Source: Sycon ciliatum | Lineage: Eukaryota; Porifera; Calcarea; Leucosolenida; Sycettidae | Direction: 5' to 3' | Length of the DNA: 64,000 nt | Assembly (NCBI RefSeq): GCF_964019385.1 | Contig: NC_088647.1 | Span: 17,490,728 to 17,554,727, forward strand | Part shown: in pieces, positions 21,063 to 61,129 of the stretch | How positions within the stretch are numbered: the first letter of the stretch is position 1 | Layout of the letters: every line of letters starts with the position of its first letter | The notes under the pieces: generated by a model | The model's database searches: none | What the model saw: only the letters and a program-made list of their open reading frames with translations | Told to the model about the DNA's origin: nothing | Translations under genes and position numbers: made by a program

Positions 21063-21112
21063 CAGGGAGTCGTAAAATACCAGGGAGTCGTAAAATATTA
21101 TACGACTCCCTG
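21063..21112. mobile_element. 50-bp hAT-like micro-palindrome with doubled left end
   Basis: CAGGGAGTCGTAAAATAC occurs twice head-to-tail, followed by TACGACTCCCTG. 8-bp duplication ATTGTATT at 21055-21062 and 21113-21120. Confidence 0.75.
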
Positions 21113-24805: not shown

Positions 24806-24843
24806 CAGGGAGTCGTAAAATACCAGTATTTTACGACTCCCTG
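24806..24843. mobile_element. 38-bp hAT-like micro-palindrome
   Basis: CAGGGAGTCGTAAAATAC...TATTTTACGACTCCCTG, flanked by GTTGCAAC at 24798-24805 and 24844-24851. Inserted in a LINE 3' fragment. Confidence 0.8.
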
Positions 24844-30105: not shown

Positions 30106-30852
30106 TCTTAGTTGTGACATCCCCATTTTTACAAGAGCAGGATTTAGAAGTTCGTCCCTGGTTCAGAACACAAGCTTCTGGGGAGCGTTTTCCTTACACC
30201 ATCAGTACAGTACAGTGGTTGACACGAATCTCATTTCTTCAGGGACAGTAGCCCATGTTCAGCAGCTCTGAGACGCGTCGTCCACTGAGCTCAGGATACT
30301 CAAGGATCCACAGAAAGTTTCAAACGGCACTCGTGCGACTGGAGCTGCAAGTGGGGTCCACTTACCAGCGAGTGGGCAGCCACTTCACGCTCCACAGGTA
30401 GTCCATACTAAATACCAGTACTAGTATCACTACATTCGACATCGATGTCTTCACTGACTTCAGCCTGCTTTTCTCATCATTCTTCGTCAGTAATAATTAT
30501 TATAAATATTTTGTTCTTCGTGGCCACCGCGTACCGCTTCAGCAAAGTTTTCAGAAAAAATCAAGCAGCGTACGAACTGCCTTTGTTTTGCATTAGCCAT
30601 GGCCAGTGCTAGTGATTCTTTCCAGCGTAGAAACTGCCACGGCTACAGAAACACTGCAACGAGTAGAACAAGTACATCCTGGCGAGCACAGAGAATCAAA
30701 AAACTTCTTTCTGCACAACAGCTTGTTTCCGCATGGAACACGATATTTTTTGAATCTCGCTTAAGGAGGTTCGCGACGGTTAGCGCCATGTTGGATTTCC
30801 GAATTTTTTTCTGAAAAATAATGCCTTTCGGAGTGGAAAAATGGGACGCGAT

Positions 30853-31874
30853 CAGGGAGTCGTCAAATACCGGGAGTGGAAACGAGATGCGCGAGCGTGA
30901 TCCATGCTCGCCTAGCTCGCGCTGGAGCACGCCGATTTTTTTCAAATAATCTTTTTTGTGCCACATTCACCAATTCCGCGGGATTTTCAAAATGTCAAAA
31001 TTTATTTTGGTTCTTCCTGCAAGCGGAGCAGTTTAGACGTCTCGACCATACATAAGCCTTCTCGTCAGATTTCCGCTTCCCTTTTGTAGTATTATCACTC
31101 TTCGTCGTGGATTCGTCGGCAGTGCATGGTCATGCTGGACAGGGAGATATCGGTAGCCATTTTACGGCTGATGTTTTAGGAACTTGGGCGAGAGGTGAGT
31201 AAAAACCAAGCTTTATCGAGTGAATACTTCTATCACTGAATAGCTTTGTTTTGGTTTGTTACACATGCATGCTGCATGTACAGAGCATTCGATTTATCAA
31301 CCTGCAGTCAAGTACAGACCCAGGGAAGCTTCTCTTTTACTTGCCCAATGATCGTGCATAAAATTTTATGTGAAACTCGTAAAATGAAATGCAATGGTAG
31401 ATTTAAGAAACTATGTGATGGTCAGGAATCAGGATACACATGGCATTCTCTACCTGGATGAATACTTGTGACAATTTTAATATAGAAATACTGCGCTGTT
31501 TTCCGTGTGCGTTTTGTCCAGACCTGGAGACCACATCAGCTGTGTTTTCAAGTTTAATTTGCAGTACAGTAGTGGCAAGAAAGCCGTCCATCATGCCAGC
31601 ATCATCCGCAGGAGCACCCCAGCCCACCGCCATAGTCAACTGCACTGCAGAGACACCTAAAATATACCATGGTGGTTGGTGTGTTGTTGCGGTGAGAAGA
31701 GAACTGGAAGCTAGCAGAAAGCCTGAGTTAACTAGCCTCAAGCCGGTGTTGGCGACTTTCGGCCATGAAATTCTGGCCAACATGTCTCCGAATCTACCAA
31801 ACTTTGAAAAGATAATTGAATCTAAGACACATGAGCATCCACCGTGTGTGTGCATGCACAGTGTGGGCATGTCA

Positions 31875-31948
<74 letters not shown>

Positions 31949-32995
31949 CCAAAGATGGCTCTCTCGTCGTGCCGATTGAATATGGTCCCTAATCTCTTGG
32001 CAGACTACCGACTTTCTGCCGTCGCTTCCATGTTGTCGGTCCCGCAAGGGGACAGGTGACCGTAATGGCAGTGTTTACCAGGACCAGGTGTGTGTGTGTG
32101 TGTGTGTGTGTGCATGCATGCATTCCAGTGTGTGTGTATGTGTGTGAATGTGCGTGCATGCGCAGTTCGTGCATGCCGTGTGTGTGCATATGCAGTTTGT
32201 GCATGCCAATGAGTGTGTGCGCACCCGTATATTGGTGCGTGCATGTACGCATGCGTAACTGCTGACACCCAAAGTTGGCAAAGAGAAGCGAGACAGAAAG
32301 AGAGAGGGATTTAGAACAGTTTAATTCGGTGTGCATTGTCAATTCTGTGATACTCGCCACAATCGGCCAAATCTGTAATTGGATTCTCAGTGTTGGTGGT
32401 GCATATACGTTGTCATGCTTCCTCTTGACATGAGACATACTGAAAGCGGTGATGTTCTCTTACACTGAAGAAAAAAATAAGAGAAATTCCTTGACTTTAT
32501 AATAATGTGGTCGTCATTAAAAAACAATAATGTTTTAGAAACAAAGGGTCCCTCAAAAAGTCAGTGGCATATCATCTTACACCGAGAAAATTCACAGGTA
32601 GCACCTATATGGAAAGGACAATGGTTACGAGAAGTTTTTTCGTGGGTCGAACCAAGTGGCTTTGATTACTGAGGCTGAGCTATTTTCCTCGATAAATTAC
32701 ATCAAAAGTCACGTTACTATCCGCGCGTGAATCGGGCCTCCAGTCATACATCGCAACACTGCGATAACGCCTACCGATAAATTAGGTGTCCTCCTACTAG
32801 TAAACGAGCAGACCACTGCAAATATCTCTGTATACACGTTCTGATGGACTCTTTCTCCCAAAAAATAATCAAGGCTACTCTAAATTGCATTTGACGACGC
32901 TGAGGTACTCAAGGCACTGCAAAAATTTTGCGCGAGGCGAGCATGGATAATCAAGATTAACGGCGTTTCCACTCCCGGTATTTGACGACTCCCTG
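30853..32995. mobile_element. 2.1-kb hAT-like element nested in element C
   Basis: Perfect 32-bp inverted repeats starting CAGGGAGTCGTCAAATACCG, with identical 8-bp target duplications GACGCGAT (30845-30852; 32996-33003). The interior (31.4-32.4 kb) has a (GT)n tract and no recognisable transposase; it is non-autonomous. Perfect ends and duplication suggest recent insertion. Confidence 0.85.
31879..31945. repeat. (GT)n microsatellite
   Basis: 67-bp perfect GT tract inside the nested hAT-like element. Confidence 0.95.
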
Positions 32996-33004
32996 GACGC
33001 GATC

Positions 33005-35510: not shown

Positions 35511-36371
35511 AGGGGAAGTTAAGGCAAAAATTAAAATTTCACCAGTTGTAGTCTTCGGGGTGCTGAGTCGAATGGTCGTGGTCCGAGGAAGCTGAGACGC
35601 TCCCTTCCTACTTGAATCCCAATCGAACTCGCGCACTTCCACCGAAACTGGGTGACTGCGCCCTACGAGATGGGGATTTGTATGCAAAATGTCACTAAAA
35701 GCGCCATTTCGTTCTTATAAAAGCACGGATGACCGCGATTGGCCCATATGTTGTAGTCTTTTGGACGCTGAGTCGACTGGTTTTGGTCCGAAAAGGCTGC
35801 GATGCAGCGTTCCGCCTTTATTCCCAATCGAACATGATTGAACAAGCGGTCACGTGCTCCTGCGTACGCCAGTCACCTGGTCACCGTGCCTGCAGGGTAC
35901 AACTTACTAGCCTGTTTGACCTTTTTTGGGTGCAGTCCTGTCACTCGAGTTGAACTCGAGTTGAACCTTGGTGTGAAAGTTGTCACCTGCTGGCGTGGTG
36001 ACCAGGTGATTTGGGCACCCAGGAGCACGTGACCACTTGTTCAACCATGTTCGATTGGGAATAAAGGAGGAACGCTGCATCGCAGCCTTTTCGGACCAAA
36101 ACCAGTCGACTCAGCGTCCAAAAGACTACAACATATGGGCCAATCGCGGTCATCCGTGCTTTTATAAGAACGAAATGGCGCTTTTAGTGACATTTTGCAT
36201 ACAAATCCCCATCTCGTAGGGCGCAGTCACCCAGTTTCGGTGGAAGTGCGCGAGTTCGATTGGGATTCAAGTAGGAAGGGAGCGTCTCAGCTTCCTCGGA
36301 CCACGACCATTCGACTCAGCACCCCGAAGACTACAACTGGTGAAATTTTAATTTTTGCCTTAACTTCCCCT
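35511..36371. mobile_element. 861-bp giant palindrome, TTAA-flanked foldback element (element D)
   Basis: The two halves are near-perfect reverse complements (arms about 385 bp; loop about 35895-35985). Ends are AGGGGAAGTTAAGG/CCTTAACTTCCCCT, flanked by TTAA at 35507-35510 and 36372-36375. Each arm carries a TATAAAAG-like box and a CACGTG E-box. Half-copies occur at 18927-19312 and 59851-60207. Confidence 0.85.
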
Positions 36372-36897
36372 TTAACGAGCTTCAAGCTATTGGCATAAGC
36401 GGAGTAGCACTACAGTGGTTCTCCAGCTATCTCCAGGGTCGACGACAACAGGTGAAAATTGGAAATAACAGAGGAGACGAGACACATTTTACACGAGGCG
36501 TTCCGCAAGGGTCGGTGCTAGGGCCTCTGTTATTCTCTTTGTACGTGCGACATGTCCCTGGAGTACTTCGCCACGCAGAGTCCCAACAGTATGCTGACGA
36601 TATCGCCTTTTATATACACTGTCAGTCTACTGGAGAACTTCAGCACAAGTTGACAAGTGAGTTGAACAGACTAAATACGTACCTTGGAAGCATTGGTCTC
36701 ATCTTGAATGCCCAGAAAACGAAGTTCATGGTGCTTCGGAAGAAGGCTCTGCCTCTTCCGCCGGATCTTACCATTGCATGCGGTGGTGTCGATATTCGAC
36801 CTTCTGCCACAGCGCGTTATCTTGGCCTCATTATTGACCAACACCTCACCTTTGAGGATCAAGTCAACCATGTACATGTATGTACATCTGTTTATAA

Positions 36898-37411
36898 GGG
36901 CCGATTCCCACTACGGTACCGTGAGTGCCGTGCCGTGAGTACCCATGGTGATTTGCTCACGTGAGGGGCAGTTTTGGCGCGAGTTCATTCCGTGGCTCCT
37001 GCTGGCCTGCCGTACCGCGCCGTGGACATTCCGGTGCCGAGGGTCTCTGGGGGGTGGAAATGGCATGCCGTGGTATTCCGTGAGGTCGAATGCAGTGAGT
37101 AGTAGGTATTTTACTACTCCCTGAAAGGAAGTTTTTTCTTTCTTTTGTATTTGTGGTACGAAGTTTTTTCTTGGCTTTTGGCTTTTCGATTGGTTGATTC
37201 TTGAGCTTTCTCCAGTCATCTCCCCCGCTATTTTCCCTCAGGACCAAAGTCAGAAATTGATAAAAATGGTGATCCGGCCTGCCGACGGAATGCACGGAAT
37301 GATTGGGCGCAGGTGTAAATCACTCTCAGCTTCAAGCTCGTACCGTGGGGTACACGTGACCTACCCAAATCGTCGGCACGGCACTCACGGTACCGTAGTG
37401 GGAATCGGCCC
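36898..37411. mobile_element. Harbinger-type MITE, TAA target duplication
   Basis: Perfect inverted repeats of about 38 bp starting GGGCCGATTCCCACTACGGT, flanked by TAA (36895-36897; 37412-37414). GGGCC termini with a TWA duplication are typical of PIF/Harbinger. It interrupts the LINE ORF, which resumes in frame. A degenerate hAT-like micro-palindrome lies inside. Confidence 0.8.
37093..37123. mobile_element. degenerate hAT-like micro-palindrome
   Basis: CAGTGAGTAGTAGG...TTTTACTACTCCCTG; no matching flanks. Nested in the Harbinger-type MITE. Confidence 0.45.
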
Positions 37412-41501: not shown

Positions 41502-41549
41502 CAGGGAGTAGTAAAATACATTTTTTTATTTTTATTTTACTACTCCCTG
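41502..41549. mobile_element. 48-bp hAT-like micro-palindrome
   Basis: CAGGGAGTAGTAAAATA...TATTTTACTACTCCCTG (T-rich loop), flanked by GTTGGTAC at 41494-41501 and 41550-41557. Confidence 0.8.
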
Positions 41550-41650
41550 GTTGGTACCCAGCGGCGAAATCAGCGAAATTAAATCGCTAGCGAAAATTAG
41601 TTGATTTACAGTATATGGTAGGCTTGTCCACATAGTCATTGTGTTTTGCA

Positions 41651-41682
41651 CAGGGAGTCGTAAAATATTTTACGACTCCCTG
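41651..41682. mobile_element. 32-bp perfect hAT-like micro-palindrome
   Basis: Two 16-bp arms CAGGGAGTCGTAAAAT with no loop. 8-bp duplication GTTTTGCA at 41643-41650 and 41683-41690. This is the minimal member of the family. Confidence 0.82.
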
Positions 41683-42055
41683 GTTTTGCATCTTTTTGCA
41701 ACTTGTAGTTGTACCCATTGCATTGGAGTACGCACGGCCGCACGCAGGGGCATGACCTAGTGCATATTGGTGCGTGCGCTAATACGCACGGCTCCGCAAC
41801 CAGCACCTGTCCTCCTATGGCCTGCCTTCGCCGGATGAGTCCAATTATTTCAGATTTGCTCTCTTCCATATGGATCGTTCATCCATAACAGGAGGATAAT
41901 GCCAGCTTGGATCGACGAGGAAATGATAAAGAACAACAACTTTCTTCCTCCCACCAGACCGTGTGCATGTGGCGTTCGTGGCCCTTTCGACTTCCGTCGG
42001 CAAGGCTTCCTGCTCTCGGCCCAATGCTTCTCCTGCGATCTGCTGGAGGGCGACC

Positions 42056-44218
42056 ATGGCTGCCGCTGCGCTCGAGGGCTACAGCCTAGAGGACACCCTA
42101 GGCTCAGGTCACTTCGGAATAGTGAAGCTGGCCTACCACGACACCACCGGTGCTAAGGTTGCAGTGAAAGTTATAGACAAGACGAAGCTCGACGCCAGAG
42201 CTCGCGAGCACCTCTTCCGGGAGGTTAGCTGCATGAAGCGGGTTGAGCACCCCAACATAATCAGGTTGTACCAGGTGTTCGATACACCCACCAAGCTTTA
42301 TCTAGTGTTGGAATTAGGTGAAAATGGAGATCTCTATGATTACATTGCCAACCATCCGGACGGCGTGGGCGAAGACGAAAGCCGCGATCTGTTTCGTCAG
42401 ATCGCCGAAGCCGTGTTCTACTGCCATAAGTTACATGTGGTTCACCGAGATTTGAAACCAGAGAATGTGGTCTTCTGTCAGAATGCCAGCAAGGTGAAGC
42501 TGACTGATTTCGGTCTTTCGAACTTATTTGACCCTGGAGCAAAGCTGAAAACTTCGTGCGGTTCGTTGTCATACTCGGCCCCCGAGATTCTATTGGGCGA
42601 CACTTACGATGCTCCGGCAGTCGGTAAGTAACAATTAGCTGGACTCCCTCCGCTCCGATGGTGTTATGACTTTCTCTCAGCTGGACGAGGAAGACTACAT
42701 AAAACGGAAATGTGCTGTCTATTCTGTTGTTGGTTTTTGCTCCAGACCGCTGGAGCCTCGGCGTGATTCTGTACATGTTGCTCGTTGGCGAAAAGCCCTT
42801 CGTCGGTGGAACGGACAGTGAGACGTTGACCATGATAATGGACTGCAAGTTCGACATGCCATCCGAACTATCGCGGGAAAGCGTCGAGTAAGAATAATCT
42901 GTACCAACTGAGACATGCTGCTTGTACTTGTAGTACAGTCCGAGTCGGTTTGTCTGTCTTTAGGACGCTAGGTAGCAAGCGGGAGGGGTGGGCCGGTGGG
43001 GACCGGACATATCTAACGTCTGTACGTTGCGATAAATGGTGACCATAGCAGTAGTGGATGGTTTGTTGATGCCGTTCATTAGGGACCTTTCGCACCACGC
43101 GTACGGATACGAAACGAATGCTGATTCGTCACCTGGGTTCGAGGATTCGTCAGAGTCCCCGCGGAGAGCTCGTTTTCACGAATGGAAGCCTCTTCATTCG
43201 TGGCACGCTCCGAATCCGTCAGGTACACATTTTTTTGCAAGGTACACATGTTTTGCCAGGTACACATTTTTTTCCTTGATTCCATGATCCATGCACGTGT
43301 GAGCGAACACACCCATACGCCAAGCTACCGACCGTATTCGTAGTTGCCATGCACATTTGCTTTACGACTTGCGAAACCTGAATTCTGTTTTCAACGAAAC
43401 GATTACGAGACGAATCAAACTTTCGTTTCGCATTCGATTCGTAGCAAATGCGAAAGGTCCCAAATATCAGGTCCGTCAATCAATAGTAGCGTTAGATGTT
43501 GTGTCATCTGGTCACAAGAAAAATCTACCGCTACCTTAGTGGATGGTCCCGATTTATCATTTTGGAAAAGAAGTATCCAAGGGCGGGATTCGAATCCAGT
43601 ACTCGTCTTGCTGGGACAGTGCCGCCCTGCCGATTAGGCTGCCAGGATCACACACACACGCACACTTGTACTTGTTGCTCACTGCCAAAAACTGGTCACG
43701 TGAGTCCCCCGGGAGAGGGGAGAGAGACTCAAAAGGAATCTTGGAAAGATGACTCAATTGGTTATTGAACCGCCCAACGGCCGACACCCCCTGAAATCCC
43801 CAAAACTCTGGGTGGACTTGAAAATGATCCCACTTATGGGCTCACCACACCTCAGTTAGTGGGTGAGGACAGGGTGCAGAAAAAGGATAGACGGCATCAG
43901 GGTATTCGTCCAGGGATCCAACTGCCGTTACCCCTGCCCCCAGTGAAGGTAATACTTGCTACTAGTGTGAGTGGCTAAATCAGAGTGGATCTGATAAAAG
44001 CTTCACTAGCACCATTGATTACACAAGAGTTAATCTAGCCAGAAGCAGTCCATGGCTAACAGGTATGTATACTATACTTCAAATAGAAAGTATATGAACC
44101 CTGGAACCAACAAAGGTGGCAGGTACAACATTACACCTTCAAGCAGCCGAGCCTGTTGGCAACAGACCCAACACAATCAGGCATAAGTGTACCTACCAAC
44201 CGAACTAGGTGGCACACA

Positions 44219-44268: not shown

Positions 44269-47200
44269 ACCACAACCCTAGCCTTGTTTGCCATTGTGTT
44301 CAGTGCTTTATTTGAAACGTGACTTATTTAAAAATCTTGTGATTTGCTCGCATGCAGCTTGGTGCAGAAGCTGCTGGTATCTGATCCCAAGGAACGGATT
44401 TCATTGGAAGACGTGCTGTGCCACCCGTGGATGACTCAAAATGCCAAGAGAGAGCACAGTCTATCCACATGCTCTGACGAAATGCACATCATCACAGGCG
44501 AGGACCGGACGAAAATCATCCAAGGCATGATTGCCCGAGGTATCGGGGACAAGGAACAAATTGACAGGTGGGTCCATCAGAGTAATGCATGGACAGTTGC
44601 TGGCAACTGCTCCATTTGTGTGCTGTACGGGATTTGAAAGTGCTGGGCCCTGCGGACCGAGAGAAGCGGTTCCTTCCCGACACATGACCCATGTAGGGCT
44701 CGGGGGGGGGGGGGGGGGTGGCGACCATCTATTGACCATATAATTAGCTATGGATGGGGCACAAAGTTAAATACAGGAGAGTGAATGCGGGAGTGGTTAA
44801 CAACTGCTATTTTTTACTACCGAACCATGTGATACCATCGCTGTCGAACCCTACTGTATAAATCTCGCTAGAGTGCACCGTATATTGTATATTATACGGT
44901 GTAATATGCGTTTACTTGAAGTAGATGTGGTCAAGTATGCTAACATGTATGTGTACATGGAGCAATTCATGAATATGCATGAATATATTGGGGTATTGTG
45001 TACATAAATCAGTGAAATCCAGCCATATATGCACATAAAAAATGATATCAGTTATCCAACATATCCAGTTGTCCAACATGCCTGATTCCCGAAGTGGTCG
45101 GATAAGTGACATTCGGCTGTAAGTGAAGAGAGTTCATACAGAAAGCTGTACCCCAAACTTGTACACTGACCAAAGGTCGAACGGGTGTGAGTTATCGTAA
45201 ACTTGGAAGTCATTTACAGCAAAGAAAAAGGACCCAGGAACTAAAAGTTACGCTATAATGTCCACTAACCCCACCAGTTACTAAAAAATCAGCTCATGCA
45301 ACAACATTGCACGACACTGACTGACGGTACTAACGTTCTACAACTAACTGGCTATCAGCTCTGGCACGCCTTGGATGTGCACTCCAACAGCCTTCCAACT
45401 TGGAAGGTTCTAAGTTTTATGATAACATAGGAGGGGACATGTGTAGTGGACATTGTAGCATTTTTTGTAGTTCCGTGGTCCTTTTTCTTTTCTATCAATT
45501 TATCCTTGGCTCTTCATCCGAGTTCATTTGCAGCACATTGGCTACAACGTGCATATTTTAGTACTTTTTTTACGGCCCTTCGATGTAATTGTGGCCTTTG
45601 GTCCTGGTGTGCTTGTGTGTCCATCTATCAGCTCCTTAGAGTCGAATTCCTATGATTATGTTGCAACCACGTACTACCTCCTGGCGGCAGAATATCAGGA
45701 AAAGAAGAGAAACAGTGATGATATGTCAGAAAGTGAGCTAGATATGAAGAGACTGGACTTGCGACGGCGGCGAGTACGGAAAGCGTCCGTGCCTGGCCAA
45801 GGTACACTAATTCCTGACTCCTCGAGGTATGTGATGTGACCTAGCTTGCCATTTGCATGCACTGTTGTTGAGCATACGTGCCTGCATTGACTGTACTTTC
45901 GGTAGCGTTGAAACGAGCGTATCTATAACAAACGAGCGAACACGTCCACTAACGAGCAAGCTATCGAGCGAGCTCACGAGTCTCATGGACGTGGCAAATA
46001 TGGATTTTTTGAATATTTTTTCTAAGTCGATTTTTTTCAAGTCAGCTGGTTCAAATTATCACTGTCGGCATTTGGGTTTTTTTTTGTTTTTGTTTTTTTT
46101 GTACTATGTGCACATCCCTACAAAGTAATAGGGTAATAAAAGAGACAAAGACAACAAAGGAGTAGTAGGTGCTACAAGAGCTGTGCTGGTCAGGCGCAGT
46201 GCACTCCTCCGACCATTTCGGTCTCGGAATCGACATGGACTGTGTGGGCCAAGGAGGTATACTATGAATGATAGACTTATGGTCTGGTTGCTGCTGCGTC
46301 ACTTCGGATTGCTGTTTCGTGTCAAGATACCTTTTCAGCAACGTCGAGGCAAAGACTGCAAGTAGCCCTGTTCTTCGCTGCATCGCGGGAGAAAACTTCC
46401 AAACGACTGAGCTGAGCGTAACTTTCACTCGAATGGAGAGTTGACAGAAGCATGTCCTGCGACGGGTCAGCAGATGCGGAACAAGACATCAGTGGGGTCC
46501 ACCAAAGCTGCAATGACAACTGAAACAACTCAGTGATGAGCAGGCATACAGTCCTGTAACTGCGAGAGATTTTCACTTTGCGTGAGACTAGACTCGATCG
46601 ACCAGGAACTCGTAAAATATTTTACGACTCCCTGGTCGACATGTACTGCCATGTGTACGGAGTACAGTGTTTGTTAGTGCAAACGAGCTGGCCGCACAAA
46701 CGAGCCGGGTTTTTGGCGAGCGAACTAACGACTCGGTGAGATCGTTTCAACTAGGGCTGAGTCGGGTAGCCTTTTCTTCGGGTATCGGGTTCGGGTAGTT
46801 TTCCAAGGGTGCACGGGTACCCGATCTGGTAATGTTTCCATGGTAACACCGCAATGCACCCCTTCCCTTATACACTGGGTAGACATGCGGAGTATTACAT
46901 GAATTTGTACACGTGCACTGTACATGATGTCATATGGGACTTCAGGTACTATTCTGTACCTGTCTACCCGAGGTCCTCACAGGTAGCACGGGTACCCGAC
47001 TACCCGTGCACATCACTAGTTTCAACACTAATTTTTGGTACCAATTTTCTGCAATCTACACTACTTCGATCTCCCAGACTCAATACTTCTAATTTGTAGA
47101 AGTTACAACTAGATTTGCCAGAATAGTGCTTCCATCTGGGATTCAACATAATATTCTTTTAAAAGAGCATCTTCCATTACACCAACGCGTATAGCCGATT

Positions 47201-50200
47201 GGTTTGTAGGCTTGCCAGCGAATCATGACGTTCCGAGTTTAAACCTGCGCTGGTATTAAACAGGGAGTGTTTACAGTCCATTCATCGGAAACTGGCCCGC
47301 TGGCTTTTGAAAGTCGGATTTGGGCCGAATGGCACGTATGCATAAAACATGGCGGCGGCGCGTCCAAATCCGGCTGCGGGGCATCTTTTGAAAAGTGTTT
47401 GAAAAAAAGTGAAAAGTGCAAGTGCTATTGTACAGTGCGCTTGCATTCTCATGTCGAAGTAGTTTCTTTTGTGGGAGGAAGTGGCCCGGAGTTTCTTAGA
47501 GATTTCGGTGATGGCTTCATCTGCTGATGCTGTCGACTACTCGAAGTGGACTGTGAATCTTTTGAAGGCTGAGTGTGAGCGGCTGGGGTTGAAGAAGTCG
47601 GGGAAAAAGCAAGATTTACTGACGAGGTAAGTTCGAAGTATTTCTTGTTGTAATACTGTGAGGAACTCTTTTGGTTTTCAACATCGATGCGTGTCTTGCC
47701 TACTATGTTCGTGTTGCAGATTGGAGAGCCATGTTCCGGAAGGCGGCACTGCACTCACATCAGGAAGTCCATCGAGCTCGTCCCTGGATTCCCCAGAACC
47801 ACTGGCATTTCCTGTGTCTGGCTGGAAATCGTTGGTGTCAGGTCGATCGCAATCCGCTGCTTTCACCCAGTCTCACTTGATAGCGTATTTTGTTCAAACG
47901 GAGACACCGTGCGGAGATGGAACCAACAGAAACTTTAAAGCTATTGCTTCAACTGACCAGAAGTCTCGTCGTCTTTTCACCAGTGGATATGTGCAGAAAA
48001 TTGAGCTGCACAAGTTGAACAACGTCGTCTGTTACAGAGCACGCTGCATGCCTGAAATGAAGTCAAGGAGCGACTACAAGCTGAGGATGTGCGTGAGAAT
48101 AGGTGACAGTGGCAACGTAGCTGAGATTAGCTTTGCTGATTGCTCGTGTCCTGCTGGTAAAGGCCCCCAAGCCAGCTGTAAGCACTTGGCAGCTCTCATG
48201 TATGCCCTGGAGCATTTCACAAGGTGTGGCTACATTGACAGTCCAACATGCACTGATGTCCTTCAGACTTGGAATCAACCCAGTAACAAGAAAAGTGAGC
48301 CGATGACGGTGAAGGAGATGGACGGCTTGAGACCTGCGCCTAAGTCCGACCAGGCTAAGCGGAAGCGAAAGCACACAGCAGCGGAGCTACAAGACCCTCG
48401 ATCATCAAGCAAGCGTGGTCTTGTACGGGACAGTGTTAGCGAATTGGCATATCAGTCATTCCACGGCAGTGCACCTCTGTTTGGGCTTTCTTTGGTCTGT
48501 GGCAGCACTGCTATGACGGATATCGACCGCGAGAGGAGGTGGCAACGGCAGAGGGACCAACAGGCACCGTGGCTGGATTTACGTAATGACGTTGCAGTCT
48601 ATGCTGAGGAATCCGATCTTCCAGACGATCTGTCAACGACCTGCGACTGTGATGTGTTCTTAGATGGGAACTGTGACACCACTGTGACCGACGATGATGC
48701 CACCCCTCTTCCATCCGATTGTGAGTGGATGGATGCTGACACCACTGATGACACCACGCCTGTTCCATCAGACACTGAGTGGATGGATGACAACCACAAG
48801 CAATGGCATTGGTACCAAGACAATGTAGTTGTAACACCTGAGCAGGCACACGAACTTCATGTCAGAACATCGGATCAGCATGGAAGTGACCTCTGGATGA
48901 GGCAACGCAAGTTGCGGATCACAGCTTCTATAGCAAAGACTGTTGCTCGCCGAAGAAGTTCGACTGATCCCGCGAGGCTTGTTAGTGCCATCACGGACCG
49001 GCCGTTCTTCTCATCAGCTGCAACGGATTGGGGAATCGCGAATGAGGATGTGGCCAGGGAGGCCTATGTAGAGGAACGCGGGAAGTCTGGCGACGTCGTG
49101 CACGTGTCGAAGTGTGGCCTGATCGTCAATCCGGAGGAGCCTTGGTTTGGAGCTAGTCCAGACGGTATTGCAGATGATGGCAAGACACAAGTGGTTCTAG
49201 AGATCAAGTGTCCGTATTCCGCACGCAACATGTCGTTTGACGAAGCTGTGAGGTCAGTTAAGAACTTTTGTTTGCAGTATGATGGCTCACACTACACATT
49301 GAAGCGCAAGCATGCATACTATTACCAAGTGCAAATGCAGCTCTTTGTCACTGGTTTATCTTCTTGTGATTTCATTGTATGGTCACGCACTGGTGGGACA
49401 AAGATTGATCGTATCGCAAGGGATGAGTTTATTCGTTGCAACCTTGCCACACTGAGAGCTTTCTATTTTCAGCATGTATTGCCGAAAGCTGCCATGTCAT
49501 GATGCTGTGAGCAAGTGCCATACTGAATGATTCGGCCCAGTTGCAGTTATACTGCCTGAGTTCTTTTTTTCCATGTTTATAATTTATAGGTGGTTAGACC
49601 CTTCTGTCCACAAGTTGTTATCATAGGTCATTGGACCCTTCTGTCCACACAAAGAAATAGGTTCGTTTTCTCTTCTTTGTGTGCGCCTGTACATGTACAT
49701 GTAAGTGTGTGCTATTGGGCAACGTGTGGATGTAGCGCAATGCTGTAGGAATGTTCATGGTTGTAAGTGGTGTGGGTACAAATACATTCTCTTACCAGAA
49801 GCAAGAGTGTGCTTATATCCCGATATATGCATATGCGCTTAGTAGTGAGGGTATACTTATGTCCAGATATACCGGTAGACACATTCTGTTATGCACGTCA
49901 CTATGGTGTACAGTTTATCACTTTGGTCTTTTTTCTTGGCATCACGGTGGTCATTTCTTTGTTCTCCATCACTTGGAAGCTTGAATGTAGTCACTATTTT
50001 CCACATGCCAAGCTCAGTTCAATGTTGGTATGTGTACTGGCTATTTCACTACCTTCACAACACAGAACGAATGTGAAGTATGTCTGGCTCCAAGTCATTC
50101 TTTACAGGACAAAATACTACACAGCTATCAATAATACCGTCAACGCAAAAGGGTACCCATTTCACACATTGCTCCAAAATTATCGATAGCTTTGTAGAAA

Positions 50201-53200
50201 TGTGGTGGCATTTTGTGTGTGAGCTCAGTTACCACTGCGCTATGCCGGCACGCCACGCGCACATAATATATGAACGTATTGGATAGGTGTCACCAAGAGT
50301 ACAGAACCCCAGTAACGTGGATTCATGATCTTCAATGACATCAAAACAGGTGCTTTGATGGAGTGCTATCGAAACTAGCCCAGTTGTACACTCTTGTGGG
50401 ATATGTACTCTTGGTGTCACATAAGGGAACGACCCAACAAGCTCAGACACCCATCAAGTCATAACCATGAAAGCGGCAATCTGTCTTTACTCCGGCACAA
50501 TGATGACCTTGAACTGTAGTAGCAATGGAAAAGAATCTGTGTACTGATGCGTGAAGCAATAGCAGGCTGCTCATAAGCCAAATATCAAACCAATACATAC
50601 CAACACATGTACCGCAATACCATACATATGCACGCACACAACAAGAACAAAATGAAAGCTGACACCTTCGGGGAAAGTTGTTTTCAGCATTACAATGCAG
50701 GTAGAGTAAAAAAAATTTAGTCTAGAATCATCACGAGCTCTGTATAAATTTGCCTTAGGTCAGAGGCCAGTTACCAGCATAGTCACACCTACATGAATGC
50801 AGTAAAGGGTGTCACACAAAAAAAATCAGCGGAAGACAGTGCGACAAAAACAGAAAGAAAGCACAACCATACCAGCAATCTGCGTTCAGTCCGGCACGGA
50901 CAAACGCGCGAACTGTATAAACGATGAAAACACACAAGTAATAGATGCATGATACAAGGTGCTGCACTGGGTCACTTACCAATATCCAATATTGGCTGAA
51001 TATTCAACAGGTGAAATAAACTAAGATAATTAGCAGCCATGTAACCCCAGTCCGGAATGGGTAATTAAATTTACTGTAGGAACGATGAAAAAAAGAAGAA
51101 AAAGAATGATAGATACACGGTACACGGTGCTGCACTGGGTTTTCACGTACCAGTAATGAGTTAACACTACATACTTTTTTTTTAACTGTTGAGCATGACC
51201 AACAGCGAATGCACACCCACACACAGAGTGCATGCACATGTGCACACGGGCACACACACATACTTACATACATACACACATACACACAAAGAAAATGAAA
51301 TCTGACATGCTGAAAAACAGTCAGTTATCCACCGGAGGCGAAGCACCTGTTACAGAAATGTCCAGTCTCATCGTCATCATTTTGACACATATGGTGGTAG
51401 CGGCGATGGCAACCTTTACATACCCTGAGGACTCGCTGATCTCCCACGCCACAGGAGAAACACACATTTTCGACATTGGTAGTACTAGCACTGACACTAT
51501 GTGAGATGCTGGCATCAGGTTCCGGTGGTTTCTCTTCACTCGTCTTGCCTTCTTGAACTACTGTTGTGGAGGGCGACACAGCCGTTTGCGTGAGCATCAC
51601 TTCTTGGACATCTGCAGATCCATGGCGGTCAGTGTCATCCACCGATGGCTGAGCTGTTCCGTCGGTGCTAGACGATGATGTTGGAACACAACTGGGCGCA
51701 GGTGGTGGAGTTACGCTGCTGGTGAGTTGGTCCTGCTCCTGAACCGGCGGCGGAACTAGCGGCTCCATGAAAAGTGTGAGGAAAGCGCACACAGTGATGA
51801 TAGGCTCGGCCAGAGACATGAGAGACGACGGAATGAAGTGCGTGATTGTGTAGTTCTTGATGCGCTCGATGGCACGTTCGACATGGATGCGCAACGTCGC
51901 AATCCGTCTTGTAGCAACGACTTCCTCAGGTTCAAGTTGATCCCGTGTTCCCAAGAACGGGGGAATATTCAGCTCGACACCATCAGGAAGTAGGGACGCA
52001 ATGTCAAATCCCCGGTCAGCCATTATGGCATCCCCTTTCTCCAGCTTATCAAGAATGCCACTGCGCTTGGTAATCTCCTTGTCGGAAATACGGCCACCCC
52101 ATAGAGATGATAGAAATGAAATGGAGCCATTTGGGGTAACGCCGACGAGCAGTTTGAGAGTATTCTTGTTCTTATAGTTGGACCAAGTCGTAGCCTGAAC
52201 CTTGGGGTTAGCGGGCTTCTCAATGGGAAATTCCGTTGCGTCGATAACAACCCTTGTACGGGGGAACTTCTTCCGGAACTCAGAGGGCATGAACCGATCA
52301 ACCAGCTCCGTACATGGCCAAATGTCCAACTCCTGGAAAGTGAAGTACATGCACTTCAGAACTGCGGCAAAGATACGAGATACTGATGACTGCGTTATTC
52401 CAAAGCGATTGCCAAGGTCGGACTCTGGAAAATTGTGTCGCAGCTTGATAACAGTGAGGAGAAGCTCGTTCTCCATGGACAGTGTGCGTGGCCGACCGCG
52501 CTGATCTTTGCCAAGGAAATCCTCATCCACATCCCACTTATAGCTCATCCCAGCCATGTTATCCATCATCAGGTTGAGTAAAGCATCGTAGCCAGCCACT
52601 GTCAAACCAGTGTAAAACAAGAGTTTAGCAGGATCCTGCCGCATTGTGCCGTAACTCAACTGGCATTTCTCCAGTAGCGTCTTCGTCTGCGCCAGATCAT
52701 ACGTGCAGTTGTCTAGTTTGCAGGTAAGGCGTTTAACTTCTTTCTCCAGATCTTCCACACGTTTGTCCATCAGCACTTTCCCATAGTCGTGCTCAACTGT
52801 CATATCAGCACTTTGAACATCACTCTCACAATCCTCAGTCTCAGGCTCTAAAACTTCCTGACTGACAGGCGCCACCAATCCAAGAGCTGTCCTAGTTTGC
52901 CTTTCCTTCACGACAGCACGGGAAACGAATACAGTTGGAGCTTCGTCAGCACTGGAGCGACGTCCTCCAGCGAAATGGACGGCACAGACATAGGAGTTGG
53001 CTGAAAGAGGTACATTGGTTCTTGGGATTTTTGCCAGCCACTGACGGCGACATTCGCTTCGTTTGTCAGTGTCAGGAGGGAGGCGATGAAACGACAAGTT
53101 TTTGCAAGCTGGATCACTTCCGCCGCAACCTATCCTATCCGCAGTCGATCCACAAAGCCTCTGCTTCTGGTATACTACTTTTCCATCATCAGGGTTGGAA

Positions 53201-55445
53201 GGAAACAGTCCGAACTTACAAGTATTCTTCCTGTTGGAGCAACCAGGAACAATGCAATGGCAATGTCCAGGCATTTTATTTTTTTAAAACTTTTTTTAGA
53301 AGAAAACGGCGAACGGCGACAAGACGAGACTGCTTGAGACAACTTCCACCAGTGGGAAGGACATAACTATTATCTAGCCTAGGCTGCTCAACACTACAAG
53401 TACAGCCAGACAACAGCAAGGGACGAGAAACAAAATCTGCAACAGCATTACTGACTACTCTCTACCTCTAGCTCTAGCTCTCTGCACCTGCATTGCACTG
53501 GCCTGCAGCAGATGCAGAAGATGCCCCGCAGCAAAAATCCGCGCGAAAATTATGCATACGTGCCATTGAGGATCAAAAACCCACTTTAAATCTCAAAAAT
53601 CTGGGTTTTGGATCTGCTTCTCCATACATTTTGCCATGGCATACCTGTCCTAATTTTGTAAAACCTGGCTGAATTTCTATTTCCCTGTTCTTGGACTTTT
53701 CTGGCCTCAAATGTGGCAAGGAGTAATTGCACGGGTCACACAATGCAGGATGTACTGTTGTTTTCACGATATCTACAACTATGTGAGAGAGAGACACCAA
53801 AAAGTTAGGGTGCCAGTTTCCAATGAATGGACTGTAGCACTCTCTCAATCGCGGTAATGCGAGCGAGTACCACTTTACATGCAATGAACTGTGCCGACGC
53901 CCGCGGTGAACTGGGTACTCACTTGCTCGGTGTGAGGGTACCAGGGATGCGGTTTATGGGGTTGTAGGGCCTGTACACGCCCGCTTGTTGAGAGACTTAT
54001 CCCCTCTCCCCTGACTCACTTGTGAGGTATGCATTTGACACTGAGGATATATGGGTGAAGTGGTGGCCCGCCGATATGAATGTATTTGCTTGATGTGTTC
54101 CTAAACACGTCAGGTGATGCGGCCGCGAATCCGGCTACCTTTTTTTCCATTGCGCAACCAATTGTATCTCCGACCAAGGTACCTATGTCCACACCGTCCA
54201 TATTTTATTGTGCTCGACTCAAAATCTTTCATGGGGACGGGGAGTTGACTACAGTTTGCTCTTGCGGCTGGTTAGGGTTCAGGGACTGGCGGTGACCAGA
54301 AATACCTTGCAGCCTCATGGCCTGTGTCACACACCGCACAGCACGGCAATGTATTAAAAAATAAAAAATTCCCAAACATGCGCAACAAATAGGTCTTTCT
54401 GTTTGGTCCGCCAGCAAGATAACAGCATGCAGCAAGAACCATTGCAGCACCCTCCTTCTGAGTTGACTTGTACAGTATTCCCGTTAGCTTCGAGGTGGTA
54501 TGTCGCCGGATTGTCTATATCTACTTGCCAAACGTGATCTCTGCCACCTAAAAACTGCTACAACTTCATACAAAAATCAATTTTTTTACCACGAACGGGC
54601 TCTGCAGGGTTCTAGCCAAAGGGGGGGGGGGGACTTCCTGTTTACACTGTTTGCGCGCCCCCTGTGAAAAAGTGCCACCCCCTGCTCATTTTCCGATTTT
54701 TCGCGTTTTTCATGCAATTCAACGAAAATGCAGTCGAAAATCACTATTAGTATTAGATACATGTAGTTCATAAAGGCACATTTGTCTGGGGCGAAGTCGG
54801 GGATTCACCCCATACAGTGCATTTAGCGTGGCAAGACAATATTGGAAAGTGGAAAAATGGGATAGGGGTAACTGTTTCCCATGTCCCCCCCCCCACTATT
54901 TTCACCTGGCTAGAATCCTGTTCTTTGAACACACATTACATGACATCATGAAATTTCATGATGTCATGTACTCTGCCGGTATCTATAATGATGCGCTCTC
55001 CTGTGTCCCACGGCATGGAATGGCCCAGCTAAACACCATGTGCTCTGCACGTCGATTCCGACGCTTGTGTCGTTACAGGAGTAGTGGCATACTCGCCAAA
55101 CGGTCACTACCAGCAATGCCGTTGGTCCACCGGCCGTCGTCCGCACCAATGCCTACCTTCATGCCGGTCACCAAAGAGGAAGACAATGGCGACGACGACG
55201 AGGACAAGCGACTGCGAACGCCGCCGTCGACCTCGCCATGGAGAACACTGGCGTCCACCAGCCCCACCGGCAACACCCTGTACAGTCTCAGCGAAATGAG
55301 CGGAAGCTACTCGCGCCGGGGCCTGCCATTTCCCACCACCCCAGCTAGCACTACCCCGCACTCCCCCGTGGCACTGGGCACGAAGCGGCAGAGTTTTCCC
55401 GTCGGAACTAGCAGATCAGCGCACAGTTTAGGAATTAGGGTCTAG
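42056..55445 (+). CDS. SNRK: SNRK-family serine/threonine kinase, copy B (5 exons)
   Basis: Paralogue of the minus-strand SNRK at the left of the window. Exons are 42056-42623, 42746-42887, 44358-44567, 45632-45826 and 55079-55445, giving about 493 aa. Intron positions and phases match copy A exactly (exon 2 is 142 nt in both). Kinase hallmarks are present: [42 protein letters not shown] activation loop, [20 protein letters not shown]. Exon 3 carries the UBA-like region, and exon 4 has [16 protein letters not shown]. The tail in exon 5 is only 122 codons, far shorter than the 528 of copy A. The start has a strong context (cgaccATGG). The exon 4 donor at 45827 was chosen because it keeps phase 2 as in copy A; an alternative at 45802 breaks it. 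Intron 4 (9.25 kb) hosts a complete ISL2EU transposon, and intron 2 hosts a SINE and a CA-flanked repeat. Confidence 0.92.
43562..43655 (-). mobile_element. tRNA-like SINE head in SNRK-B intron 2
   Basis: Minus strand has CCTAATCGGCAGGGCGG (A-box-like) and GGATTCGAATCCCGCC (B-box-like) about 45 bp downstream. Abuts the CA-flanked repeat copy. Confidence 0.5.
43660..44266. repeat. about 570-bp dispersed repeat bracketed by (CA)n, copy 2
   Basis: Same orientation and order of blocks as copy 1 with scattered differences; an extra ACACAATCAGGCATAAGTGT stretch near the right end. Lies in SNRK-B intron 2. Confidence 0.8.
46603..46634. mobile_element. 32-bp hAT-like micro-palindrome (diverged)
   Basis: CAGGAACTCGTAAAAT and ATTTTACGACTCCCTG; two mismatches between arms. 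Flanks share only ATCGAC/GTCGAC, so the duplication is unclear. Intron 4 of SNRK-B. Confidence 0.6.
47511..49502 (+). CDS. YqaJ-type nuclease with SAP and SWIM domains (transposon-encoded, 2 exons)
   Basis: Accessory protein of the ISL2EU element. Exon 1 (47511-47626) encodes a SAP-like DNA-binding motif ([19 protein letters not shown]...QDLL), and exon 2 (47720-49502) continues in phase through a 93-bp GT-AG intron, giving 632 aa. A SWIM zinc finger is visible as CSCPAG followed by CKH, near residue 190. The middle is acidic and low complexity, with a repeated [16 protein letters not shown] unit. The C-terminus is a YqaJ PD-(D/E)XK nuclease: GASPDGI supplies the Asp, VVLEIKCPY the E-x-K, and YYQVQMQLF the Gln motif. 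The fold is related to phage lambda exonuclease; a role in end processing during transposition is inference. No frameshifts or stops are seen. Confidence 0.85.
49503..51324. other. spacer between the convergent ISL2EU genes
   Basis: AT-rich, with TACATGTACATGTA, a 126-bp inverted-repeat element at 50291 and short CA runs near 51240. Only the two convergent genes flank it; likely both 3' UTRs and filler. Confidence 0.6.
50291..50416. repeat. 126-bp CACCAAGAGTACA inverted-repeat element
   Basis: CACCAAGAGTACA at the left end and TGTACTCTTGGTG at the right. The same AAGAGTAC motif recurs at 16522, 620-645, 8410 and 41105-41125. Confidence 0.5.
51325..53274 (-). CDS. THAP-HTH-DDE transposase with C-terminal PHD finger
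   Basis: Single-exon 649-aa transposase of the ISL2EU element. Residues 1-105 form a THAP zinc finger (C2CH: CIVPGC, then C and H of YVCAVHF). A coiled coil follows around residues 170-215 ([17 protein letters not shown]). A helix-turn-helix ([16 protein letters not shown]) precedes a DDE_Tnp_4-type catalytic domain with [10 protein letters not shown] (first Asp), IMADRGFD (second Asp) and [12 protein letters not shown] (Glu). After a Ser/Pro/Gln-rich linker the last 50 residues form a PHD-type finger ([24 protein letters not shown]). It is transcribed toward the YqaJ gene. All catalytic residues are present, so the copy may be functional. Confidence 0.88.
   Translation of the reverse strand: MPGHCHCIVPGCSNRKNTCKFGLFPSNPDDGKVVYQKQRLCGSTADRIGCGGSDPACKNLSFHRLPPDTDKRSECRRQWLAKIPRTNVPLSANSYVCAVHFAGGRRSSADEAPTVFVSRAVVKERQTRTALGLVAPVSQEVLEPETEDCESDVQSADMTVEHDYGKVLMDKRVEDLEKEVKRLTCKLDNCTYDLAQTKTLLEKCQLSYGTMRQDPAKLLFYTGLTVAGYDALLNLMMDNMAGMSYKWDVDEDFLGKDQRGRPRTLSMENELLLTVIKLRHNFPESDLGNRFGITQSSVSRIFAAVLKCMYFTFQELDIWPCTELVDRFMPSEFRKKFPRTRVVIDATEFPIEKPANPKVQATTWSNYKNKNTLKLLVGVTPNGSISFLSSLWGGRISDKEITKRSGILDKLEKGDAIMADRGFDIASLLPDGVELNIPPFLGTRDQLEPEEVVATRRIATLRIHVERAIERIKNYTITHFIPSSLMSLAEPIITVCAFLTLFMEPLVPPPVQEQDQLTSSVTPPPAPSCVPTSSSSTDGTAQPSVDDTDRHGSADVQEVMLTQTAVSPSTTVVQEGKTSEEKPPEPDASISHSVSASTTNVENVCFSCGVGDQRVLRVCKGCHRRYHHMCQNDDDETGHFCNRCFASGG
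54937..54970. repeat. 34-bp perfect palindrome
   Basis: TACATGACATCATGAAA and its exact complement with no loop, 109 bp before SNRK-B exon 5. No target duplication seen. Confidence 0.8.
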
Positions 55446-56551: not shown

Positions 56552-57477
56552 GTAATTGGCGTTAGAATGAAACGGATGAGACTGCACCGGTATAGATGGA
56601 ATTCTGGTAATTCGGTAACTCGATTCGAATCAAGCTATGTATCATGCTGTCCCCTTGGAAAAACGCGATTCGGCGCATAGCTTATGGCTTTCTTCCAGTC
56701 CATCCTCAAGCGTGCAAAAAACATATCTCTGCCACTAATCGAGACTTACACTGATTTTTGCGCTTTTGGGCCCAAATAAGTCTTGATGACGGCAAAAAAT
56801 AATTGTCAACTGAATACGGAAGTGAACGAATTTGGTCGAAAGTGTCGAACCACCTTCATGACGAGCAACCGTTTGTGGCCACTGTTTGTGAACTTGGAGC
56901 TTGTTATGGTGTGTGTCGGCAGGAATTTTTTTATGGCGATCAGGAAACGTTTTTCACATCGAAATCAGTGGTTACCCTTTGAAATTGAGATGTTCAAACA
57001 GCGAATTTTCTACGTCGAAATGAAGTTGGAGCACCATCGAGTTTGATTATTCCGATTTCCTTGGTGGGCTAAGGTAAGGGTAATTAACAGCTAGACATAA
57101 AAATCTCACCTGTTCACGCCCTGTATAATCCAACTTCGACCTTCAAAGTGGGCGTACTCAAGCAACATAAATCATACATGCCGTATACATAAACCTTTGA
57201 AGGGAGCATGAAAACACGCAAACGCATAGCTGTGTATACATGTACATTGTAGACCCTAGTTTGTGTTCCTCTGTGTGTCTCGGTGTGTCGTCAATGCTGT
57301 ATTTGACAACCGTAAGCATAAGGAGAAAGTTGCCGCTGTACGCGCTCTTGTGTGTAGTATGTGTGCCGCGTTCAGTTGCTGTCTAGTATGAGATATCGGT
57401 ACATGTAGCTGGGCTGGTGGTGCGTATTGCCTTGATGTGGATCACCTAACTCGTGGCCTTCTAAAGCCTGTCGAAAC

Positions 57478-57552
57478 GCATGCCGTTTCAGATGTATGGT
57501 CTCGTGGTGTGTGTGTGTGTGTGTGTGTGTTGTGTGTGTGACTGTGTGTGTG

Positions 57553-57601
<49 letters not shown>

Positions 57602-57666
57602 GTGCATGTGTGCGTGTGTGTGTCAAAATGCATGCCGTTTCAGATTTATGGTCTCGTGGTGTGTGT
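57478..57666. repeat. (GT)n bounded by a direct repeat
   Basis: ATGCCGTTTCAGATGTATGG...GGTGTGTGT occurs at 57480-57517 and again at 57631-57666 (TTTATGG variant), enclosing GT repeats. Confidence 0.75.
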
Positions 57667-57672
57667 CTGTGG

Positions 57673-57876
57673 TAGGAACCGGTGGATTCTGCTCGAAAAG
57701 GTGGCAGATTCTGCTCGAAAAGCAGTGAAATTGGCAGAACCATACAAAGCTTATGGCGGGCAATTCCTCGAATTCTGCTCCATTTCTTTATCCACATACC
57801 AAACATGCATAAAACTTACCAGAAAAAGTACCGAATTCTGCCAATTTTCTGCCGGCAGAATCCGCCGGACCCTAGT
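57673..57876. mobile_element. short TIR element with CTGTGG duplication, possibly related
   Basis: Approximate inverted ends TAGGAACCGGTGGATTCTGC / GCAGAATCCGCCGGACCCTA, flanked by CTGTGG (57667-57672; 57877-57882). It shares the GCAGAATCC motif with the 6-bp-duplication family but has different termini. Confidence 0.45.
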
Positions 57877-57896
57877 CTGTGGGGGGGGGGGGGGGG

Positions 57897-57928
57897 GGTT
57901 GTGTGTGTGCGCGTGTGTGCGCGCGCGC

Positions 57929-57959
<31 letters not shown>
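57897..57959. repeat. (GT)n microsatellite after a G run
   Basis: A run of G (57881-57898) followed by GT/GC repeat. Confidence 0.9.
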
Positions 57960-57961
<2 letters not shown>

Positions 57962-58165
57962 TCTGTCGCGCTCACAATATCTCGTTTTCTGCTTATGAAG
58001 CTACACAATGTACATGTATATGTATGTGTTATTTGTAGGAGATTACAATGTAGAGGTGATTGTCTGCTTTGCGTTCCTCTCTGCTTGGCCTGCATTATCA
58101 ATTTATCAGTACTGGTTTTTGCTCTTCACACGTACACGTACCCCCACCCCCCCCCACCCCCGCAC

Positions 58166-58170
58166 ACAAA

Positions 58171-58222
<52 letters not shown>
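58166..58222. repeat. (CA)n microsatellite
   Basis: 57 bp of CA after a CCCACCCCC stretch. Confidence 0.9.
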
Positions 58223-58225
<3 letters not shown>

Positions 58226-58418
58226 GCGCACGCATGCTTATGTATACTGTTTCAGTTTGAAAAATGCAAAGTGTCCTGTACATGTGTGCGTCTGATGCAT
58301 TCACACGAACTTCAACGGTCTATGATGCACGCGTCACTTCTCCTTTGACTCTGAGTTTGAGGAAAGAAAACCAAAGCATATCAATACAATCACATACATG
58401 TATACAAACTTTTAAAAG

Positions 58419-59739: not shown

Positions 59740-59774
59740 CAGGAAGTAGTACACTATCATTGTACTACTCCCTG
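59740..59774. mobile_element. 35-bp hAT-like micro-palindrome (diverged)
   Basis: CAGGAAGTAGTACA...TGTACTACTCCCTG, flanked by GTACGAAT (59732-59739) and GTACTAAT (59775-59782), one mismatch. Confidence 0.65.
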
Positions 59775-60207: not shown

Positions 60208-61129
60208 CAGGGAGTAGCACAAAACTGTCCTTGCTCAACGTTGTATATTGGATTATTCGCTGTGCGAGACTCGACTACTCGGGACAGAGAGAGAAAGTCA
60301 GAAAGACGGCTGCCGAAAAGAAGACCCGAGTGGCTAGTAAACTGGCTACAGGGGACATACAGTAGTTTGATGTGCTCACCACAGATTATGAAATTTTGAA
60401 TAGGGTAGTCCCACAGGGTATATGTACAAGCTTGAAGGGCTGAGGACACTTTGGAGTGCAAAAGTATGAAGATTTAACAGAAGGCACAAACGCCCAAAGC
60501 TGCCAGCACACACATCTTCAACAGACTACTCATATGCGCTGGGCACTGATGATAAGGTTGGCGTCAACATGAAAATTAACCCCGGATAGCCAATTGTCGC
60601 AGTGTGGTAAGTTCACAAACTGCTCAGTCATTGTTTCTGGGTTTTCACAGGAGCCATAAACTGAATCCAATGGTAGTTTGTAACTGCGACAATATCGTGC
60701 AGGAAATATGTGAAAATACATAACATTTGAGGAGGCAAGCCAAACAAAGGAAGAAAAGGGCACATATGAATGAAGAATGCCGAAAATGAGACTCCGAGGA
60801 TGAGATTGACACCTGGACAAAAGGAAAAAGGGAAAGCAATTAGAAAAGGAAGGAGTGTAGCCAAAAACAGAAAATCAGGGGGCGTTGGTCAGCAGCTGAA
60901 TCAGCATTTACAGCACTTTAATCAGCACAAACATTAAGACGGGGAAAGAAGTTATCATCCATCCAACAAAGTCCAGCAGCAACGGTAGAGGAAGAGAAAA
61001 CTGACCTCTTGAAGAGATAATGCGCCCAGACACTGTCACCAAGTGCAGGAGACCTGTAGAAGTAACACGCACAGCACTAATTAGAAAAATGTATATCGAA
61101 AATTCAAGAATGAAGAAACTAAGAAAGTG

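Follow-up and report, generated by a model that had tools for sequence, protein, structure and literature searches.

Tiny terminal-repeat palindromes in the Sycon ciliatum genome: probable scars left by the excision of P-superfamily transposons

Excision by P-type transposases leaves recognizable products in flies, and these are the closest described counterparts of the palindromes examined here. As described in the parts of PMC7776569 that deal with cleavage, the Drosophila P transposase makes a staggered break: one strand is severed where the element ends, the second 17 nt into the 31-bp repeat, and the donor keeps 17-nt 3' tails. The end-joining products in Table 1 of Chan et al. 2010 (PMC2895639) consist of the duplication, up to 17 nt of one repeat, up to 17 nt of the other, and the duplication again, with junctions that include 1–3 nt homologies, blunt joins and templated inserts. 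Published target motifs, as given in one part of PMC3276498, are GTNCGNAC for hobo, a hAT element, and GTCCGGAC for P; because both share the same pattern, a bias in the duplication cannot tell hAT from P. In this study, tiny palindromes scattered through a sponge genome were analyzed, and they are very probably donor-site excision scars of a transposon family of the P superfamily.

The window, by which we mean the whole stretch of 64,000 nucleotides analyzed, is part of contig C5, and the genome searched comprised 538 Mb in 313 contigs. The features of the window that concern this family are listed below; "scar" stands for putative excision scar, and types A and C are two kinds of end that carry CAGG and CCGG, respectively, at repeat positions 18–21.

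41651..41682, unstranded: 32-bp scar, two 16-bp terminal-repeat remnants meeting at an AT/TA step; GTTTTGCA duplicated at 41643-41650 and 41683-41690
41502..41549, unstranded: 48-bp type-A scar, remnants separated by A/T-rich filler; GTTGGTAC on both flanks
24806..24843, unstranded: 38-bp scar with centre ACCAGT; GTTGCAAC on both flanks
21063..21112, unstranded: 50-bp scar, one end with an extra 18-bp outer-repeat copy; ATTGTATT on both flanks
59740..59774, unstranded: older scar of 35 bp; duplications GTACGAAT/GTACTAAT differ at one base
46603..46634, unstranded: 32-bp palindrome whose flanking 8-mers do not match (CGATCGAC/GTCGACAT); palindrome and flanks also present in the L002 repeat copy
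37093..37123, unstranded: seventh case, 31-bp asymmetric palindrome (12 + 19 bp) without duplication, probably a degraded scar
60208..60224, plus strand: lone decayed arm, partner absent within 3500 bases
30853..32995, unstranded: unexcised non-autonomous element of 2143 bp, bounded by 32-bp terminal repeats CAGGGAGTCGTCAAATACCGGGAGTGGAAACG and flanked by GACGCGAT at 30845-30852 and 32996-33003

An earlier note, made from the letters alone, had pointed out the first six of these palindromes; all of them are present, and their arms match CAGGGAGTMGTAAAATA. Its statement that five carry 8-bp duplications holds exactly for four of the six and with one mismatch for a fifth (59740), while 46603 has none; the bias it described, T at position 2 in 5/5 and A at position 7 in 3/5, was recovered. 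Arm matches with at most three mismatches number 17 in the window, compared with 0.28 expected and a maximum of 3 in 100 shuffles. The ACCAGT centre at 24806..24843 could represent the CCGG junction common elsewhere, altered by a single CpG-type change, or else a variant join. A separate segment, 21199-21309, is homologous to the L010 scar site (88–89% over 111 bp) and has ATTTGAAGTTGAAAC in place of the target; it holds two partial target copies and no repeat remnant, and is perhaps an excision that lost the entire tail. The window also contains frames for a Mutator-like transposase (25816-27702), a THAP + DDE_Tnp_4 protein (51325-53283), a YqaJ-type nuclease (47631-49502), a reverse transcriptase (36344-36964) and Det1, together with a pair of similar protein-kinase frames 31 kb apart, one on each strand (10077-10718, minus; 41930-42631, plus).

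Across the genome, the exact 16-mer arm occurs 5387 times (2669 + 2718), and its reversed control 0 times. Two exact 16-bp arms with a spacer of 0–30 define 972 elements (control, 0), among which one identical 38-bp perfect palindrome (CAGGGAGTCGTAAAATACC/GGTATTTTACGACTCCCTG) accounts for 435 and type-A arms for 152. The 16-nt arm was the floor of the first search patterns; shorter arms, down to 11 nt, also exist, and relaxation to 11-bp arms yielded 3437 two-armed elements (control, 0). The genome-wide palindrome search that the earlier note had called for therefore returned many copies by either count. Its further question, whether the flanking 8-mers match beyond chance, is answered by 71 distinct elements, in which the flanks were identical in 46 and within one mismatch in 59, compared with 0.04% and 0.34%, respectively, when left and right flanks were paired across different loci. 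None of these 71 matches extended to nine or more bases.

After the inclusion of 40 type-A loci, the sample came to 111 distinct elements, taken largely from contig C1 and from the first-listed matches. The duplication was exact in 69 and carried one mismatch in 18; five showed a 1-nt indel shift, in two it lay outside a nested extra arm, and 17 lacked one. Both arms were of the same type in 111/111. Twenty further shorter or variant elements, of which L127 and L132 have identical flanks, gave 11 exact duplications, four with one mismatch, one with an indel and four without any. The exact duplications differ among sites (67 distinct among 69) and carry T at position 2 in 63/69 and A at position 7 in 55/69. 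Such 8-bp duplications, terminal repeats of the CAGGGAGTMGTAAAATA type and thousands of copies bear out the origin in a cut-and-paste DNA transposon that had been proposed. At L017:4093-4130, a 38-mer is flanked by inverted copies (GTTTGTAC / GTACAAAC, up to ~13 bp) instead of direct duplications, and one 38-mer without target duplications is present, together with its flanks, as copies at L074, L077 and L079, with both orientations represented.

The same ends also bound long elements. The element at 30853..32995 of the window is an uncut relative of the scars: a 38-mer scar with its end type lies at C1:5413013-5413050 between exact duplications of ATGCACGG, and the single frame examined within the window element (31419-31979) had no match in Pfam. 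The longer end CAGGGAGTMGTAAAATACMGGGAG has 416 genome occurrences, compared with 5387 arms. On contig C1, 99 long ends form 37 full-end pairs of 873–5615 bp and none shorter; 20 of the 37 fall between 873 and 902 bp, and this type-A family does look amplified. The fetched DNA contained 60 duplication-bounded elements, namely 54 of 32–57 bp, one of 430 bp, which is a second element nested inside a 38-mer, and five of 881–2148 bp, and two control end pairs gave 0 elements in the same length scan. These regions were chosen largely for close arm pairs, which inflates the tiny fraction there; the genome-wide ratio of 972 scars to 416 long ends is free of that selection. Terminal repeats are identical at 32/32 bp at both ends of L009, L019, the window element and L126, and GTGCTGAG is a further 8-bp duplication of long elements. 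No transposase was found in the 5254-, 5615- and 3205-bp elements examined for one. Of these, L084 proved to be of the 885 type and to harbour a nested reverse transcriptase, and L082 is an 885-type element containing ~2.9 kb at 96% identity to window 56696-59563, an unrelated repeat. L083, with ubiquitin-like and weak MMS21-like frames and no duplication, may not be a single element.

The transposase was located through a profile search of the genome with PF21788, which gave two matches only, each in a 1002-aa stop-free frame. One such 1002-residue frame is contained in a 6939-bp element (L126:336-7274) that has GAGAAATC duplicated on both sides and 32-bp ends identical, on both sides, to the long type-C ends. 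Against Pfam, the frame scored over cut-off for PF21787 (5.9e-19) and PF21788 (5.8e-6) and below cut-off for PF21789 (0.01), and its residues 506-966 matched the solved Drosophila P transposase 6p5a (9.1e-7). In this alignment, Asp, Asp and Glu fall at the catalytic positions of 6p5a. The frame also matches a C2H2-type zinc finger and gave no hit to THAP with E values allowed up to 0.1, a result that applies to this frame alone, other exons being possible. L019 (2.5 kb) is 98.5–99.8% identical to the 6939-bp element in three blocks and, judged by this identity, is an internally deleted copy of it. The element in the window and the 885-bp family of type A match the 6939-bp element at their ends only, at the thresholds used, and no autonomous element came to light for type-A ends. 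Long elements of this family have an 8-bp duplication and 32-bp terminal repeats, and the L126 element also contains a P-type transposase gene. By sequence comparison, the type-C ends are thus assigned to the P superfamily and not to hAT, and the other end types would presumably follow. The hAT membership suggested by the earlier note is not supported, given a complete element with identical 32-bp ends that encodes a P-element transposase.

Insertion into previously empty sites was examined by removing the element and one duplication and comparing the result with other fetched DNA. Copies of the same repeat that lack the element and hold one target only were found, with exact targets, for L044, L045 and L060 versus L003 and for L080 versus L028 and L058; near-exact empty targets were found for L034, L037 and L071. 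The flanks of L044 and L060 are 99.3% identical over 146 bp on one side and 93.4% over 152 bp on the other, and they give no firm age because the two sides disagree. These empty sites show that something was inserted, but not that a 38-bp unit was.

The length of the retained arms and the composition of the centres bear on how the palindromes arose. In type A with CAGG ends (40 of the 50 elements listed of 152), the arm measured at most 20 nt in 39/40 on each side, with a mode of 19; in type C with spacers of 7–30 (50 listed of 172), the same held for 47/50 on each side, again with a mode of 19. Because the arms stop there though the search patterns could have revealed ~30 nt per side, the tail in the Sycon P family is probably ~19–20 nt. 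The possibility that the inner CMGGGAG motif (position 18) is treated as an element end and cut there was considered and rejected, bases 18 and 19 being usually kept.

The two types differ at the centre. The CCGG centre of the 38-mer was present in 31 of 44 listed type-C elements and in 435 of about 820 genome-wide, the latter figure being 972 minus 152 and assuming no mixed arms (0 mixed in 111 sampled). The equivalent 19+19 join occurred in 4/40 type-A elements; there, 28 different centres were found among 50 listed, seven of the 50 having ACCGGT, and none of the long ends listed was a type-A end with CCGG. Fillers of at least 3 nt were almost all unique among the elements listed (22 distinct of 24 in type C and 12 distinct of 12 in type A, i.e. 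34/36). The complex forms that recur are a 56-mer, present in L067 and L073 with unrelated flanks and different exact duplications, and ACCATATGGT, seen twice. The 56-mer contains an extra 18-bp outer repeat, a copy of which (GTATTTTACGACTCCCTG) lies directly outside the normal end in L067, L073, window 21063-21112 and the right end of L019, where its flank GTACCAC is shared but for one base. Since L019 has the same extra copy and a near-identical flank, the 56-mers may derive from such elements. CCGG 38-mers also occur in the CAGGGAGTCGTCAAATACC and CAGGGAGTAGTACAATACC end subfamilies, and other end types have produced a 22-mer consistent with GTAC:GTAC pairing and 27-mers consistent with TAC:GTA pairing, several with duplications; the scan for tail self-complementarity used matches of at least 4 nt, and the pairing in the 22-mer and 27-mers was recognized post hoc. 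Overall, most of the tiny palindromes consist of duplications around two partial repeat remnants, the remnants are capped in length, and the junctions look like those of independent end joining.

These features can be accommodated by the following sequence of events. A P-type element with 32-bp terminal repeats inserts and creates an 8-bp duplication, a step demonstrated by the long elements and the exact empty sites. The transposase would then excise the element by a staggered cut, one strand at the boundary and the other ~19–20 nt inside the repeat, a stagger we infer from the end points of the retained arms. Each donor end would retain the target duplication and a 3' tail beginning CAGGGAGTMGTAAAATAC, and with identical tails, pairing would be possible only at self-complementary stretches. 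In type C, the CCGG at positions 18–21 (CG at 19–20 if the tail is 20 nt) would pair and give the perfect 38-bp palindrome. The CAGG tails of type A could not pair and would be joined through small trimming, 1–2 nt homology or a short filler, outcomes that were observed; the enzyme repairing the tails is probably polymerase theta. The final product, duplication, left remnant, right remnant and duplication, would be immobile, and because complex fillers almost never recur, the scars appear no longer to move. Against this reading count the elements without duplication (17/111 and 4/20), the two recurring complex forms and the ACCGGT type-A centres, for which the listed long ends offer no source. 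Neither these nor the missing transposase for type-A ends overturns the scar model.

The main competing view treats the tiny palindromes as mobile units in their own right: the transposase would move repeat-only units of 32–38 bp, and the 435 identical 38-mers would be copies of a master. The uniformity of those copies, their distinct exact duplications (67 different of 69), the exact empty-site paralogues and the occurrence of the same 56-mer at two unrelated loci would all fit such mobility. However, the 28 type-A centres in 50 listed elements and the fillers of at least 3 nt, which recur only as two pairs, are not what copying should produce, and the uniform 38-mer is found independently in a number of end subfamilies, with arms that match the subfamily in each case; a single 38-mer master fails on both the type-A spectrum and these parallel 38-mers. 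Furthermore, the arms end where a staggered cut predicts, and the empty sites, as noted above, do not bear on a unit of 38 bp. The hAT elements covered by the relevant part of PMC10368747 depend on over 100 bp at each end, so that independent movement of 38 bp is also unlikely on general grounds. A MITE is a short form that has been amplified, whereas the complex centres of the 22–59 bp forms hardly recur among the elements listed. We therefore regard mobile palindromes as very unlikely. The treatment of the 32–50 bp objects as moving elements in the earlier note is accordingly not upheld, given centres that resemble independent end-joining junctions, arms that stop near 19–20 of 32 nt and fillers that hardly recur, and the puzzle it raised, how elements of 32 bp are recognized and mobilized, probably does not arise.

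Inserted elements might instead have collapsed in place by ordinary internal deletion, through replication slippage or repair unrelated to excision, with the loss halted at transposase-bound ends. Microhomology and filler at the junctions are compatible with this, as is the asymmetric remnant L001, which is 57 bp long and has the right end of the 6939-bp element as its final 43 bp. Random deletions should, however, yield intermediates, and full-end pairs below 873 bp were absent among the 37 on C1, while in the fetched DNA the nested 430-bp case was the sole duplication-bounded element with a length between 57 and 881 bp. The limit of 19–20 nt on both sides also requires an agent that cuts or protects, which staggered excision provides. 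In-place collapse is thus even less probable than mobility of the palindromes. Abortive gap repair with random internal deletions is likewise not favored, intermediate lengths being missing from both the fetched DNA and the C1 pairs. The last alternative, hAT mini-elements or hAT scars, draws on the bias of the 8-bp duplications (T2 in 63/69, A7 in 55/69), but the GT....AC pattern is common to P targets as well in the motifs presented in PMC3276498, and identical ends enclose a P transposase gene. Moreover, hAT cutting is not expected to leave 19–20 nt of both repeats. Hermes and Tol2 require well over 100 bp per end, as reported in the portion of PMC10368747 on end requirements. Heterogeneous centres and the P transposase with identical ends led us to reject hAT mini-elements mobilized as such, and a hAT origin in any form has next to no probability.

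Read as donor-site excision scars, these palindromes have several implications. Such scars are ordinarily classed as MITEs or simple palindromes; recognized for what they probably are, they become a tally of past jumps, with at least 972 exact two-armed scars versus 416 full-type ends. They also form a natural record of germline repair at hundreds to thousands of double-strand breaks with defined tails, and the presence of self-complementary and non-complementary tails in one genome amounts to a test of microhomology choice without experiment. The apparent puzzle of moving 32-bp transposons would dissolve, and caution is warranted elsewhere, as repeat-only palindromes in other genomes may be scars. 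A more speculative proposal, possible but on balance doubtful, is that this lineage cuts ~19–20 nt instead of 17 nt inside the repeat and that the self-complementary CCGG in the tails of some of its ends channels healing to one near-deterministic, symmetric product, the tail sequence perhaps having been selected to heal the host and the thousands of scars recording germline end-joining choices for several different tails. A literature search, with most subscription journals outside its scope, returned no match for the arm 16-mers and no recognized counterpart among MITEs of very small size, palindromic elements or naturally occurring P scars, which is weak evidence of novelty.

The kind of product described here is ordinary, since P-type excision scars are already known from flies; what is unusual is their number, the apparent 19–20-nt stagger and a self-complementary tail that gives hundreds of identical perfect palindromes. 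Comparison with other systems places the family as follows. Like hAT elements (Hermes, Tol2 and hobo), it has an 8-bp duplication with a T2 and A7 bias; unlike them, it has a transposase of a different family, and the hAT ends treated in the relevant part of PMC10368747 needed to be far longer than 19 bp. Made1 / MiHsmar1, as presented in part of PMC1784062, is likewise a palindrome built only from two terminal inverted repeats, but at 80 bp (two 37-bp repeats + 6 bp) it is mariner-type and counted there as a MITE, whereas the 22–59 bp forms here look like scars. The long elements share with the Drosophila P element, as described in part of PMC7776569 and in 6p5a, the 8-bp duplication, repeats of ~31 bp and internally deleted non-autonomous copies, and the L126 frame has the RNase H-like and GTP-binding domains of its transposase. 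They differ from it in size (6.9 kb versus 2.9 kb), in a 32-bp repeat composed of two CMGGGAG motifs 17 bp apart and, within the 1002-aa frame, in the C2H2-type match in place of a THAP hit. The scars, finally, resemble the fly P excision products shown in part of PMC2895639 in keeping both 8-bp duplications and partial repeats, in their kinds of junction (1–3 nt homology, blunt joins and templated inserts) and in being near-palindromic. The fly products are single induced events at one locus with arms of up to 17 nt, whereas the Sycon genome holds thousands of natural fixed scars with arms reaching 19–20 nt and one end type whose CCGG tail heals mainly to a single perfect palindrome.
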